From Puerhibacterium puerhi (GTDB lineage: Bacteria; Actinomycetota; Actinomycetes; Actinomycetales; Cellulomonadaceae): 64,000 nt of DNA. The position numbers were made by a program, and so were the translations under genes. Below, piece by piece: positions 29,217-34,577 of the stretch. The stretch covers positions 23,246-87,245 of the forward strand of contig NZ_WUWN01000010.1 in NCBI RefSeq assembly GCF_009846865.1, in the 5' to 3' direction. How positions within the stretch are numbered: the stretch's first letter is position 1; every line of letters begins with the position of its first letter. The notes under the pieces are model-generated. The model was not told the origin of the DNA, did no database searches, and saw only the letters and a program-made list of their open reading frames with translations.

Positions 29217-29264
29217 GGTGGGCCCCGTGGGGATCGAACCCACAACCCGCGGATTAAAAGTCCG
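29217..29264 (-). other. Prophage attL: displaced 3' half of tRNA-Lys (TTT)
   Basis: The minus strand reads from the anticodon arm (GGACTTTTAATCC) through a complete T-arm (GTGGG, TTCGATC, CCCAC) to the acceptor 3' strand GGGGCCC and discriminator A. There is no D-arm or 5' acceptor upstream; phage sequence takes over at about 29264. This is the usual scar of integration into the 3' half of a tRNA gene. The intact tRNA-Lys, restored by the phage's own copy of these bases, is expected at the far end of the prophage. Confidence 0.85.
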
Positions 29265-30841: not shown

Positions 30842-31555
30842 ATGCAGCACCGCCCCGCCCGGATCAACCCCGACACCCTGCCCGTGCTTGCCCTCGCCGT
30901 CGTGCTCACGGCCGGGCTCGCCGCGGTGTCATTCCTGCTGTCCTTCGCCGGACTGTCCGCCGTGTCCGCCTGGGCCGCCGTCCCAGACGGACTCACCTGG
31001 GCCGTCCCGGTCATGCTCGACGTCGCGATCCTCGTCTACACCCTGGCCGTCCTGGTGCACCGAGCCCGCGGCGAGCGCGCGGCCGGCGCCTGGGCCGCCC
31101 TGGCGCTCTGGACGTCCGTGTCCGTGGCCGCCAACGCCGCGCACGCCGCCGGCGTCCCGGACACCTGGCAGACGGCCATCGGCACCGTCGTCGCCGGCCT
31201 CGCGCCCGTGGCCGTGCTGCTCGCCACCCACACGATCGCCCGCCTCGTCGTCGCACCTGCGCCGGCCGTCCACGCGGCCGCAGACGGTCCGGTGGCCGTG
31301 CCCGACGCCGTCCCGGACGCGGACAGCGCGCCGAAGTCGGACGCCTGGACGGGAACGGACGCCGGACGGGCGCCGGACGCCGACCCCGTCGAGGTGCGCC
31401 GCCACCGTCCCAGCGCCGCGCGTGGCCGCGCCGCTGAACATCGCGCGGACGTCCTGGCGATGCGGGACGACGGACTGTCCATTCGGCAGATCGCCGAGCG
31501 GGTGGGGCTGGGCAAGACGACCGTCGCGGAGCTGCTGCGCACCGCGCCGGGATGA
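30842..31555 (+). CDS. DUF2637 (SpdB-like) membrane protein with C-terminal HTH
   Basis: The 237-residue protein has four membrane helices in the first 140 residues (LLSFAGLSAVSAWAAVPDGL, WAVPVMLDVAILVYTLAVL, ALALWTSVSVAANAAHAAG, GTVVAGLAPVAVLLATHTIA), the signature of DUF2637, found in actinomycete conjugative plasmids, AICEs and phages. The C-terminus adds an HTH (LSIRQIAERVGLGKTTVAEL). AAGGAGAG precedes the ATG. In plasmids such Spd proteins act in spread between mycelial compartments; the role here is unknown. Confidence 0.85.
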   Translation: MQHRPARINPDTLPVLALAVVLTAGLAAVSFLLSFAGLSAVSAWAAVPDGLTWAVPVMLDVAILVYTLAVLVHRARGERAAGAWAALALWTSVSVAANAAHAAGVPDTWQTAIGTVVAGLAPVAVLLATHTIARLVVAPAPAVHAAADGPVAVPDAVPDADSAPKSDAWTGTDAGRAPDADPVEVRRHRPSAARGRAAEHRADVLAMRDDGLSIRQIAERVGLGKTTVAELLRTAPG

Positions 31556-31570
31556 CGGGTGGACGGCGAA

Positions 31571-31609
31571 GAGCGCCCCACCTCCCCGGGTAGGGGAGGC
31601 GGGGCGCTC
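31571..31609. terminator. Terminator between convergent prophage units
   Basis: A 17-bp stem with one mismatch (31571-31587 with 31593-31609) and loop GGGTA separates the rightward lysogeny block from the end of the leftward late operon. It probably ends both. Confidence 0.85.
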
Positions 31610-32086
31610 TCAAGATTCCGGGATCTCCGGAAGCGGGAACTGCTCGGCGACAACGCCGGCGAGGTGATCGACCATGCGCTCGGTGGCGTCCTTGAACGTG
31701 GCCCACAGCATGTCGCCGGCGCGCTGGCTGAGGAAGCCGGAGCGCAGCAGCCCGACACGGATCACGTCGGTCTGCTCACGGTGGGCCAGGTGTAGCAACT
31801 CGTGCACGATGTCGTTGCGCTGGCCCTCGGGCGAGCGCTCGAGCCAGTCCTCGCACAGATGGATGCCAGCGACGTAGCGACCCTCGACAGGGTCGACGTG
31901 GGCGATGGCCCCCTCCATAGCCGGCTCGGCGGCGAGGAACGTGTCCCAGTGACCCAGGTGGAGCCCGTCGCGCACGCGCCAGATGCACTCCTGGATCGCA
32001 TCGGCCTGGGCGGACGAGAGCTCGAGGACGGGCTCCTTCTCCGGCTCGGGCTCCGGCGCCGGCGCGCTGGACTCGTCGAGGCTCAC
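31610..32086 (-). CDS. HExxH zincin-like prophage protein
   Basis: The 158-residue protein has an acidic Pro/Glu N-terminus and then DIVHELLHLAHREQTD near residue 110, an HExxH zinc motif followed by a third His. No signal peptide is present, so it would act inside the cell. Similar short HExxH proteins occur in actinophages without known targets. The start GTG overlaps the stop of the Acb2-like gene (GTGA), so the two are made together; it is the last gene of the leftward operon. Whether it is a protease is inference. Confidence 0.7.
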   Translation of the reverse strand: MSLDESSAPAPEPEPEKEPVLELSSAQADAIQECIWRVRDGLHLGHWDTFLAAEPAMEGAIAHVDPVEGRYVAGIHLCEDWLERSPEGQRNDIVHELLHLAHREQTDVIRVGLLRSGFLSQRAGDMLWATFKDATERMVDHLAGVVAEQFPLPEIPES

Positions 32087-32370
32087 CGTGCGGGCCCGGC
32101 CGAAGCGGCTGCGGCGAGGCAGCCGGCGCAGGAGCCGTCCGGCTTGCCGCAGTAGTCGCACTCCGGGATCTCGGGCGGCAGGTCCAGCGCGGCGCGCACG
32201 GCGGCGTCCTTGGCCTCGAGGAGCTTGCGCAGCGCGACGGACTTCTCGGGCCCGTCGGGCAGCGTCTCGTCGATCTCGAGGGCCAGCCCGTGGAACCGGG
32301 CCGAGGTCGTGCGCAGCGGTCCGGCCGACAGGTGGCCGTGCTCGAAGTACCGCAGGATCGGGCTCGCCAC
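32083..32370 (-). CDS. Acb2/Tad1-like helical hairpin protein with zinc-ribbon tail
   Basis: Residues 1-65 or so (ILRYFEHGHLSAGPLRTTSA, then LALEIDETLPDGPEKSVALR, then KLLEAKDAAVRAAL) match the two-helix hairpin of the Acb2/Tad1 family as I know it. Family members are phage sponges that sequester cyclic-oligonucleotide or cADPR-type signals and so block CBASS or Thoeris immunity. The last 30 residues add CDYCGKPDGSCAGC, a likely zinc site not found in the minimal sponges I recall. Its place between lysis genes and an HExxH gene suits accessory anti-defence cargo. Family from memory; no search was run. Confidence 0.62.
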   Translation of the reverse strand: MASPILRYFEHGHLSAGPLRTTSARFHGLALEIDETLPDGPEKSVALRKLLEAKDAAVRAALDLPPEIPECDYCGKPDGSCAGCLAAAASAGPAR

Positions 32371-32371
32371 G

Positions 32372-32971
32372 TCAGGCCTCCCGCTCGAGCTCGCGAACAG
32401 GACCCCACCACGTCGCCTGACGCGCGTCGTCCGGCCGGACGGCAGCGGTGTACCCGCCGTCCCCGCTGGAGAGGCTCGTGATCACGCCGTGCGCGCCGCC
32501 AGGGGTGATGACCCGGTCGCCCTCCGCGAGCGCCGGCGCCGAGTTGGGCGCCGTGGTGATGACCTGTGCTCCGTCGGGGCTGGTCGTGGCTTCCTCGGGC
32601 AGGGCGGCGATCACGGAGCGGATCAGCGTGACGGCGGCGGCGCCGGCGGCCTGGCCGAGGATGGCTCGGATGTCGACGTCGCCGAAGCCGGCTGCGGTGC
32701 CGAGGGCGGCGAGGAGCACCTGGAAGAACGTGCGCGCCACGCGGTCGACCACGGCGAGCCACGGCGGGCGGCCGGCGCCGAGCTCGGGCAGGTTGGCCAG
32801 CGAGGTGACGAGGGACAGCACGACGGCGAACCCGACGCCCGCGAGGGCCTCGAGCGCGGCGCGGGCGGACGGATCGGCGAGCAGCGGCACGACGAACGGC
32901 AGCGCCGCGGCGAGCAGCGTGTAGAGGGCGCGCCAGCCGGCGGCGCGCCAGAAGGTAGCGGTCGAGATCAC
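32372..32971 (-). CDS. Holin (r1t-type) with internal duplication
   Basis: The 199-residue protein holds two similar membrane halves: FWRAAGWRALYTLLAAALPF to VVLSLVTSLANLP, and WLAVVDRVARTFFQVLLAAL to AAVTLIRSVIAALPE. Each has the pattern of r1t-type holins, so the gene looks like a tandem duplication. A soluble tail of about 60 residues follows (GDRVITPGGAHGVITSLSSG), resembling a small beta-barrel. It would form membrane holes that free the endolysin. The GTG start has GGAGG upstream and overlaps the preceding small gene. Confidence 0.75.
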   Translation of the reverse strand: MISTATFWRAAGWRALYTLLAAALPFVVPLLADPSARAALEALAGVGFAVVLSLVTSLANLPELGAGRPPWLAVVDRVARTFFQVLLAALGTAAGFGDVDIRAILGQAAGAAAVTLIRSVIAALPEEATTSPDGAQVITTAPNSAPALAEGDRVITPGGAHGVITSLSSGDGGYTAAVRPDDARQATWWGPVRELEREA

Positions 32972-33117
32972 GGGTAGCCTCCGTAGGCGAAGAGTCGGAG
33001 CAGGGTGAGGACGGGCCAGGAGGCGGCCCAGACGACGAGCACGAACGCGGCCCAGCACGCGGCCAAGACGAGCGCGGCCGCGGCGAGCGCCGCGGCCGCG
33101 CGGCGAAGAGGGCGCAC
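32968..33117 (-). CDS. 49-residue single-pass membrane protein (second holin or antiholin candidate)
   Basis: A GTG just before the endolysin stop region opens a 49-codon frame: basic VRPLRRAAA, then one long hydrophobic helix (ALVLAACWAAFVLVVWAASW), then a short tail. It ends in a GTGA overlap with the holin start. Position between endolysin and holin, size and topology fit a small holin partner. It is too short for common gene finders and easily missed. Confidence 0.7.
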   Translation of the reverse strand: MRPLRRAAAALAAAALVLAACWAAFVLVVWAASWPVLTLLRLFAYGGYP

Positions 33118-33118
33118 C

Positions 33119-34048
33119 TCAGATGCGCCCGGTGTTGAGTCGCTCCTGCAGGGCCTCGACGGCGGTGGACGGCTTCCAGAGCTCGCCGTCGGCCTTGGTG
33201 CCGAGGTCCTGCTGCAGGGCGGTGAAGTACTGCGGGCCGGCCTTGCCGTCGATCGCGCCCTTGTAGCGCCCGCGGTCGCGCAGGATCTCCTGGTGTCGGC
33301 GGATGGTGGGGGAGCCGCCGTCGCCGGTCTTGCCGGTCCAGTCCCAGCCGGTGGTGCAGCCGGGGTTGTCGTCGCGCCAGGTGGCCGACTGGCGGGAGAC
33401 CTCGCCGTCGACGACGTCCATGTCGAGCACCTGCTGCAGCCGGGTGGTGGTGCCGGTGCCCCACTTGCCGTCGACGTCGAGCTTGGCCTGGCCGGACGGC
33501 GTGGGGGTCGGGGCGGAGGCGCCGCCCCCGCCGGAGACCACGCCGCCGAGCGCGGCGGCCTTGCGGGCGACGTCGTCCAGGCGCGGCAGCAGGTACGGGC
33601 CGGGGCAGGCGGTGGCCACGCCGTACTCCTGGTGGCCCTTGAGGCTGGCGCGCACCGGGGCGAACCGGTGGCGCTGGGCGATGTCGGCGTACAGGCGGAT
33701 GAGGGTGTCCATCGCGGCCGCGGAGATGCGCCACTCGGGGGCGCCGGTCTCGTTCTGGATCTCGACGGTGATCTTGTCGTCGTCGTTCGCGTAGGCCGAC
33801 GTCGTCCAGGCGCGGTACTCCTCCGGCACCGACCCGATCAGCGAGCCGTTGTTGCGGATGATGTAGTTCGCGCTGGCCGGGTCGTTCGACGTCACCAGCC
33901 GGCGGATGCCGGAGTCGTTGGTCGCGGCGTGGTGGTGGACGTTCAGGCCGTTGATCCGCACGCCCTTGGGCCGGGCGGACCACTTCTTGCCCCCCTTGTA
34001 GCGACCGGTCGGGGGCATGACCTCGTTCGTGAGCGGGCTGTAGACCAT
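33119..34048 (-). CDS. Endolysin: N-acetylmuramoyl-L-alanine amidase with peptidoglycan-binding C-terminus
   Basis: The 309-residue lysin has an Amidase_2 domain (residues 25-170 or so) with zinc ligands in LNVHHHA and in KGHQEYGVATACPGP (His and Cys), and NYIIRNNGSLIGSVPEEYRA as the substrate groove. A Gly/Pro linker leads to a C-terminal region with KLDVDGKWGTGTTTRLQQVL and a second copy-like segment (GAIDGKAGPQYFTALQ), typical of peptidoglycan-binding repeats. There is no signal peptide, so it depends on the holins. It cuts wall peptides from muramic acid at lysis. Confidence 0.93.
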   Translation of the reverse strand: MVYSPLTNEVMPPTGRYKGGKKWSARPKGVRINGLNVHHHAATNDSGIRRLVTSNDPASANYIIRNNGSLIGSVPEEYRAWTTSAYANDDDKITVEIQNETGAPEWRISAAAMDTLIRLYADIAQRHRFAPVRASLKGHQEYGVATACPGPYLLPRLDDVARKAAALGGVVSGGGGASAPTPTPSGQAKLDVDGKWGTGTTTRLQQVLDMDVVDGEVSRQSATWRDDNPGCTTGWDWTGKTGDGGSPTIRRHQEILRDRGRYKGAIDGKAGPQYFTALQQDLGTKADGELWKPSTAVEALQERLNTGRI

Positions 34049-34136
34049 GGCGGGTGCCTCCCGGGCATGACGAAGGCCGCGAGCGCCCGGGGGCGGTCGC
34101 GGCCTGCTGGTGGGTGTGGGTGTGGGTGTGGGTGGG

Positions 34137-34577
34137 TCAGTCGCCGTCGGGCGGCGGGTAGGCGGGGTCGAGGTCGCGCAGGCGGCGGCTGGCGGTGGCG
34201 GCCTCGCGGCGGGCGGACTCGGCGGTGTCCTGCACGCGGCGCACGTCGCCGCGCACGCCCTCGAGTTCGGCGCGCTGCTGGCGGTTCTCCTCGCGCAGGC
34301 CGCCGATGTCGCGGCGCATCTCGGCCACGCCGGCGAGCACCGCGTCGAGCTTGGAGCCGAGGCCGTCGACGTCGTTGCGCAGGTTCGTCTTGTGGTCGTT
34401 GGCGACGTGCTCGCGCACCTTCTCGGTCTTGCCGAGCAGCTCGTCGAGCCGCGGCTTGAGCCACCTCGCCGCCAGGCCCAGAGCGACGACGGCCGCGGTG
34501 CCGAGCACGGTGCCGAGCGCGCCGAGCAGGCCGCCGGACGTGGCGACCTGCTCGGCGGCCTGCTCCATGAACGTCAT
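34137..34577 (-). CDS. DUF2746-like membrane and coiled-coil protein
   Basis: The 146-residue protein has one N-terminal membrane helix (LLGALGTVLGTAAVVALGLA) followed by HVANDHKTNLRNDVDGLGSK and a long coiled coil, a pattern I recognise from DUF2746 proteins of actinophages located near the lysis genes. A holin-like or minor structural role is possible. It starts in an ATGA overlap with the small gene upstream. Confidence 0.75.
   Translation of the reverse strand: MTFMEQAAEQVATSGGLLGALGTVLGTAAVVALGLAARWLKPRLDELLGKTEKVREHVANDHKTNLRNDVDGLGSKLDAVLAGVAEMRRDIGGLREENRQQRAELEGVRGDVRRVQDTAESARREAATASRRLRDLDPAYPPPDGD

Follow-up and report, generated by a model that had tools for sequence, protein, structure and literature searches.

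The 95-amino-acid protein encoded at 32083-32370 on the minus strand of the window (the whole stretch of 64,000 nucleotides that was analysed) carries a predicted helical hairpin followed by a tail with four cysteines, and appears, from profile comparison and structure prediction, to be at best a diverged third branch remotely related to Acb2 and Tad1. With a probability of about one half, we read it as a diverged hairpin of the Acb2/Tad1 superfamily, probably oligomeric, that would soak up a nucleotide alarm signal. The hairpin belongs to phrog_1761, a family of widespread phage proteins without assigned function, while the cysteine tail seems to be a trait of this prophage lineage.

The gene, its prophage and its family

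Reading of the open reading frames confirmed the gene that a sequence-only reading had proposed, on the minus strand and with a GTG start. The frame is very probably a real gene, because relatives from distant hosts align from its first residues and its hairpin part gives dN 0.08 and dS 0.29 against a same-genus homologue. Upstream on the same strand lie a holin gene (32372-33058, minus strand; PF16945 at 29.4 bits, cut-off 26.9; phrog_443 at 4.6e-12) and then an endolysin gene for an N-acetylmuramoyl-L-alanine amidase (33119-34048, minus strand; Amidase_2 at 1.2e-15; phrog_7698 at 2.8e-34). The TGA of the holin gene ends at 32372 and the GTG start follows one base later, and the TGA of the 95-aa gene in turn overlaps the GTG of the next gene (GTGA, 32083-32086). 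Genes for the tape measure, major head, scaffold and large terminase proteins lie on the same strand further along the window. A scan of 31000-34300 found neither promoters nor terminators.

The gene sits inside an integrated prophage, and its proposed position beside lysis genes of such an element holds. A 48-bp sequence that repeats one end of a tRNA-Lys(ttt) gene marks the left prophage boundary (attL, 29217-29264, not assigned to a strand); its second copy is in the tRNA-Lys(ttt) gene itself (L343 8733-8807; 72487 in the numbering of the window, past its end), which gives a prophage length of about 43.3 kb between the repeats. Outside the window and between the repeats, a gene labelled integrase-like by sequence reading is present at L343 5564-6742. 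A 44-kb IMG/VR contig (L001) contains a 99%-identical copy. As separate observations, the downstream gene (31610-32086, minus strand, 158 aa) encodes a HELLH motif within VHELLHLAH and may specify a small metallopeptidase or an IrrE-like protein, with no PHROG match at 1e-5 and Peptidase_M78 at E 0.2; near the integrase end, a HEIGH-containing gene read as ImmA/IrrE-like (L343 5103-5564) adjoins a gene read as a repressor-like HTH gene.

Residues 1-63 match phrog_1761 (2e-20) and phrog_5120 (9e-14), both PHROG families of unknown function. With tblastn, relatives were found at E<=0.1 in 336 of 50,697 phage records, many of them near-duplicates, from phages of Vibrio, Erwinia, Acinetobacter, Mycobacterium, Brevibacterium, Gordonia and others; none of these matches spans 80% of the query. 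Among IMG/VR stretches retrieved by seed patterns, at least 581 encode a relative (581 of the 600 listed; the best 80 of the 581 were kept), as do 191 of 250 seed-matched stretches in a one-genome-per-species collection of 84,980 species, where the closest relatives in named genomes, among the best 80 of the 191 that were kept, come from Brevibacterium, Leucobacter, 'Micrococcales bacterium' and Cellulosimicrobium. In whole genomes relatives are sporadic: 6 of 221 genomes of the host family and 5 of 396 of the host order have one (own genome counted and one case marginal in each), and the phrog_1761 profile matched 4 of 396 genomes of the phylum, own genome counted, and no control genome. Two hits were set aside, namely one from the host-family search (G131, 6.4e-4), whose locus scores just 20.8 bits, and one from the order search (G332, 6.6e-4), in which no LRKLLExKD-type motif was found.

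Across 99 sequences, F9, L14, A30, E42 and R59 are fully conserved and H13 is conserved in 98%, while the block LRKLLEAKD is near-invariant, a result to be read with the overlap between this block and the search seeds RKLLEAKD (for the one-genome-per-species collection) and KLLEAKDA (one of those for IMG/VR). Moreover, R48, K49, L50, E52 and D55 are present in all of 17 proteins read by eye, 16 of which came from named phages by tblastn and one from a protein search of genomes. The product gp27 of Brevibacterium phage AGM1 is 75% identical over residues 1-68. Members are mostly recorded as 'hypothetical protein' among the matches listed. The 95-aa protein has no match in NCBIfam or PADLOC, nor do the members of its alignment A1 in PADLOC, and these members have only weak, unrelated matches in NCBIfam. 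Some hairpin-family members are recorded under names that say nothing of the hairpin: 'anti-TRAP domain' in Ochrobactrum phage OH (L205 765-1133), 'sliding clamp DNA polymerase' in Cellulosimicrobium phage DS1 (L335 3276-3863) and 'occludin homology domain' in Acinetobacter phages Ab1656-2 and Acba_16.

Remote similarity to the Acb2/Tad1 hairpin

The sequence-only reading had taken the N-terminal part, quoting LPDGPEKSVALRKLLEAKDA (residues 37-56), for an Acb2/Tad1 hairpin. This is partly supported, as a remote profile similarity, but the protein is not a recognisable Acb2 or Tad1: the PF24729 score is below its cut-off, the protein falls in the separate family phrog_1761, and a typical T and W are lost. 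PF24729 (Acb2_Tad1_hairpin) was the sole Pfam match of the 95-aa protein at E<=1 (0.004), with 17.7 bits against a curated cut-off of 27 bits. At E<=1 it also matched 10 of the 19 members of A1 (best 0.00077) and none of nine further relatives, and a search with the PF24729 profile matched nothing in the own genome and likewise nothing in 14 control genomes, so that this negative carries no weight. In addition, the 95-aa protein is matched at 2.4e-5 by phrog_1454, to which the clear Acb2-like proteins belong (P0002-P0004 at 3.4e-37 to 1.3e-29); for four relatives that were tested, the values range from 3.8e-6 to 0.0021.

The Acb2-like yardstick consisted of P0002-P0004 (59-78 bits to PF24729) and 35 IMG/VR loci, 21 of which were included in the 24 rows of alignment A2; for hhalign, 29 loci and the three named-phage proteins made up 32 rows, with L188 and L195-L199 excluded. 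The family profile held 99 of 101 distinct sequences (L122 and L156 were dropped). Compared by hhalign, the 99 relatives and the 32 Acb2-like sequences matched at 92.3-93.3% (E 5.5e-7 to 2.8e-7) over 33 columns, and A1 and A2 at 89.4%. The real score of 36.6 stands against maxima of 16.0 for column shuffles (n=200) and 22.7 for shuffles that preserve the heptad register (n=300), and against 8.1 for the reversed profile; the remote profile similarity to Acb2/Tad1 is thus, at the level of sequence profiles, well above random helix noise. The C half alone scored 25.8 (80.7%). Most of the similarity lies in the turn LPxGxEKS and at the beginning of helix 2, since removal of the seven turn columns collapses the score to 12.2 (0.9%) and shuffles of seven-column blocks (up to 200) reach a maximum of 32.9 (89.7%).

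Against PDB sequences, the A2 profile recovered 'Acb2 homolog 43' (9ptq, 3.7e-12) as well as chains of Tad1 (2e-4). The 95-aa protein reached 9ptq at a non-significant E of 0.46 as a single sequence and 0.06 as a profile, and designed proteins outranked 9ptq in the latter search. Three actinophage proteins with 59-78 bits to PF24729 (L162 184-432, L163 193-390 and L164 190-432) are also recorded as 'hypothetical protein'. Gene products of mycobacteriophages Xandras and BigBubba are named CBASS antagonists in the accessible text of PMC11953737, and they may be kin of P0003, gene 104 of Mycobacterium phage StolenFromERC.

The AF2 model, built on the 19 rows of A1, places helices at residues 4-9, 18-36 and 41-61, with pLDDT 93-95 over residues 21-60 and about 57 in the cysteine tail. 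The predicted hairpin covers residues 4-63 (32182-32361, minus strand), and no strand of three or more residues is predicted. For a clear Acb2-like control (L165; AF2 on the 22 rows of A3), the helices were at 10-18, 25-48 and 53-79; the order of the helices and the four-residue turn are equal in both models, and the control helices are longer. A short helix with two long helices also fits the published description of Acb2, as far as given in the available part of PMC12043709.

The PDB fold lists of the 95-aa model are without Acb2 or Tad1, both among its 39 Foldseek matches and among the 50 matches listed by a second fold comparison. This silence is weak evidence against kinship, because the control also barely recovers the solved structures: its 50 listed Foldseek matches to the PDB include no Acb2 or Tad1, and in the second comparison T4 Vs.4 (7uq2; Z 5.7, 3.5 A, 58 aligned) and Tad1 (7uav; Z 4.9, 3.0 A, 48 aligned; other Tad1 chains at 4.9 or lower) appear. 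In BFVD, the 95-aa model had 123 matches at E<=10, none of them at 0.001 or better. Proteins labelled 'Acb2/Tad1 hairpin domain-containing protein' account for 13 of the first 28 and 14 of the 50 matches listed, at E 0.28 and higher with probabilities from 0.44 to 1.00, and of the eight top-ranked matches only the second, the protein of Ochrobactrum phage OH, is other than uncharacterised or unnamed. Since Foldseek also uses sequence, the BFVD result depends partly on the profile result.

In helix 2 of A2, R53, E54, T60, E63 and N70 are invariant and W68 is near-invariant; by the hhalign register, with N70 and W68 placed by ungapped extension beyond the alignment end, R53, E54, T60, E63, N70 and W68 correspond to P41, E42, R48, L51, V58 and A56 of the 95-aa protein. 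The T and W are retained by Tad1 chains aligned to the A2 profile, and by T4 Acb2 (Vs.4) as T68 and W76; because T4 Acb2 has no counterparts of the R, E and N of A2, only T and W are common to all three yardsticks. Both are replaced in the 95-aa protein, by R48 and A56, which speaks against its being Acb2 or Tad1 proper and would be compatible with a similar working mode. T4 Acb2 (69-80) and the 95-aa protein (49-60) do have KLxEAxxxAxRA in common, and the family conserves a charged set of its own, R48, K49, E52, D55 and R59. According to the accessible text of the respective reports, T68M lowers binding by T4 Acb2 and Y8A is binding-deficient (PMC12657230), while F82 stacks on the ligand (PMC12657218).

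The cysteine tail and other zinc-type modules

Behind the hairpin, the tail carries C71-x2-C74-x6-C81-x2-C84 (32119-32160, minus strand), as the sequence-only reading had noted, and these four cysteines probably bind zinc. For the zinc ribbon that had been proposed, the keeping of all four cysteines in a second genome is favourable, whereas a zinc fold is not confidently predicted (pLDDT about 57). The second genome (G197, of the host genus; locus L200) encodes an 80%-identical homologue with C..CGKPDGSC.GCLAAA. Compared with it, codons 64-69 show the drift of a linker (one identical, one synonymous, four changed), while among codons 70-88 twelve are identical, three synonymous and four changed, none of the changes falling on a cysteine. 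The dN of the tail (0.18) is higher than that of the hairpin (0.08). This one homologue pair suggests selection on the cysteine tail. As a further observation by eye, a G+C-rich inverted repeat lies within tens of bases past 1773 in L200, where the tailed gene, in contrast to that of the window, may be the last of its operon.

Among 101 distinct relatives (162 matches), a CxxC after the hairpin occurs in one only, which is the 95-aa protein itself in three copies (the window, L081 and L001). In 97 of the 101, fewer than 25 residues run past the hairpin, and L012, L114 and L144 run 25 or more and are without CxxC. Three relatives from other genera of the host family (L201-L203) end a few residues past the hairpin. 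Judged from these sequences, the cysteine tail is a trait of this prophage lineage and not of the phrog_1761 family. The tail had no Pfam match, that of L200 matched Phage_zn_bind_4 at E 0.59, and a tblastn search of phages with the 27-aa tail alone gave nothing at E<=10. A first DNA pattern scan for the hairpin with two CxxC (loose) found the hairpin, among at least 120 stretches, in L318 (this phage) and L325 alone; a second scan gave the same two, with a pattern that needs a CGC arginine and EAKD and would miss forms like L200. L325 was rejected as a tailed member, as its frame stops directly after the hairpin. Apparent tails of L007, L009, L011 and L016 in the IMG/VR matches were likewise discarded, the alignments having run past stop codons, and the N-terminal cysteines of L085 and L121 are, as read by eye, probably out-of-frame sequence upstream of the start.

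Zinc-type modules of other kinds occur on the N-terminal side of the hairpin. The protein of Ochrobactrum phage OH has a CxxCxGxG pair (DnaJ_CXXCXGXG at 0.0055 and Anti-TRAP at 0.017, both below cut-off), that of Cellulosimicrobium phage DS1 a C2H2 finger with an earlier Cys/His group (zf-C2H2_4 at 0.00062, below cut-off), and that of the metagenomic phage L016 a Cys/His finger recognised by eye. Because types and sides differ among these hairpin proteins, we argue that the modules were probably gained separately.

Possible function and comparison with known systems

We infer that the 95-aa protein shares its descent with Acb2/Tad1, forms oligomers, binds a ligand and acts against defence; nucleotide sponging by it is plausible. 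Acb2 and Tad1 are hexamers with several bound ligands according to the accessible parts of PMC12043709 and PMC11722364. In an oligomer of the 95-aa protein, packed hairpins might form pockets for a phosphate-rich small ligand, and expression late in infection alongside holin and endolysin would hold a host alarm nucleotide low and so keep a suicide defence from being triggered ahead of lysis. The cysteine tail would most likely bind one zinc ion and serve as a structural clip or as a contact surface on the oligomer. With R48 and A56 in place of the common T and W, and with a conserved charged set peculiar to the family, such a pocket cannot be the one of Acb2/Tad1; the ligand is therefore probably different, and the same ligand set is unlikely. 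The strong conservation across phages of several host phyla would favour a small universal ligand over a host protein target. In the 3.9-Mb host genome, searches with SMODS (PF18144) and TIR_2 (PF13676) found no match, and the same searches matched 3 and 4 of 14 control genomes, respectively, which counts against the sponge reading.

The differing zinc-type modules on one hairpin (C4 here and in L200, and those of OH, DS1 and L016), together with the absence of the typical T and W, could also point to an oligomerisation or docking platform without a nucleotide ligand, used by phage regulators or adaptors whose zinc modules contact nucleic acid or protein. We regard such a platform as a serious yet less likely alternative, for most relatives have no module (97 of 101 end within 25 residues of the hairpin, and 11 of 17 proteins are just 61-77 aa in total), and the invariant charged residues would be needless in a pure scaffold. 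Clearly less probable is a hairpin unrelated to Acb2/Tad1, with a turn that is alike by convergence and a function other than anti-defence. The collapse of the similarity without the turn columns, the Pfam score under the cut-off with no PF24729 match in the nine further relatives, and the PDB fold lists would agree with convergence, but the heptad-register shuffles remain far below the real score, and PF24729, phrog_1454 and BFVD all point to one family.

An accessory role in the timing of lysis, in conjunction with the holin, would fit the neighbourhood in the window, and in Brevibacterium phage AGM1 the family gene also begins one base after the holin, while in Gordonia phage Widow it lies two genes before lysin A. 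We consider this role very improbable, however, since the family gene lies close to that for the major head or capsid protein in Acinetobacter phage YMC, Vibrio phage 1.012 and Rhodococcus phage Perlina, four genes upstream of the terminase in OH, and adjoining replication and recombination genes in DS1. Beyond the diverged sponge that we prefer, a wider proposal is put forward tentatively and with some doubt of our own: phrog_1761, present in phages of several host phyla, might be a third and so far unrecognised sponge branch with a pocket rebuilt for a different immune nucleotide, on which zinc modules were gained independently in about four lineages and altered assembly or partner targeting, so that the hairpin would serve counter-defence as a plug-in chassis.

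Binding of an immune nucleotide by the hairpin would give a family known from some hundreds of phage records a counter-defence function that can be tested, and the altered pocket might then lead to a signal missed by Acb2 and Tad1. Should no nucleotide be bound, the assignment of such hairpins to CBASS by fold only would need care. Either way, bare (AGM1 gp27) and tailed members (the 95-aa protein and L200) form a natural pair for the effect of an added zinc module. Acb2 calls in actinophages are already published, as seen in the accessible text of Statler (PMC13348362) and of PMC11953737; searches of the open-access literature yielded no report of phrog_1761, of a relation between this family and Acb2/Tad1, or of Acb2/Tad1 hairpins with a zinc tail.

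Compared with known systems, the 95-aa protein resembles Acb2 (T4 Vs.4 and Pseudomonas phage Acb2) and the actinophage proteins of phrog_1454/PF24729 in its short N-terminal helix followed by two long antiparallel helices, in the LPxGxEKS-type turn and KLxEA in helix 2, and in the small single-domain make-up of these phage proteins. It differs from them in its first long helix, modelled as shorter by about five residues, in R and A for T and W, in its own LRKLLExKD block and in the C-terminal C4 tail. The C-terminal hairpin of Tad1 is in the same Pfam family as Acb2 and is recovered by the A2 profile, whereas Tad1 also has an N-terminal beta-sheet domain, as described in the available part of PMC12043709, which the 95-aa protein does not have. 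Within its own family, phrog_1761/phrog_5120, AGM1 gp27 and the protein of Acinetobacter phage YMC/09/02/B1251 consist of the hairpin alone (64 and 63 aa) and lack the cysteine tail. The proteins of Ochrobactrum phage vB_OspP_OH and DS1 share the design of a hairpin joined to a zinc-type module, but their modules are N-terminal and of other types, a CxxCxGxG pair and a C2H2 finger, respectively.
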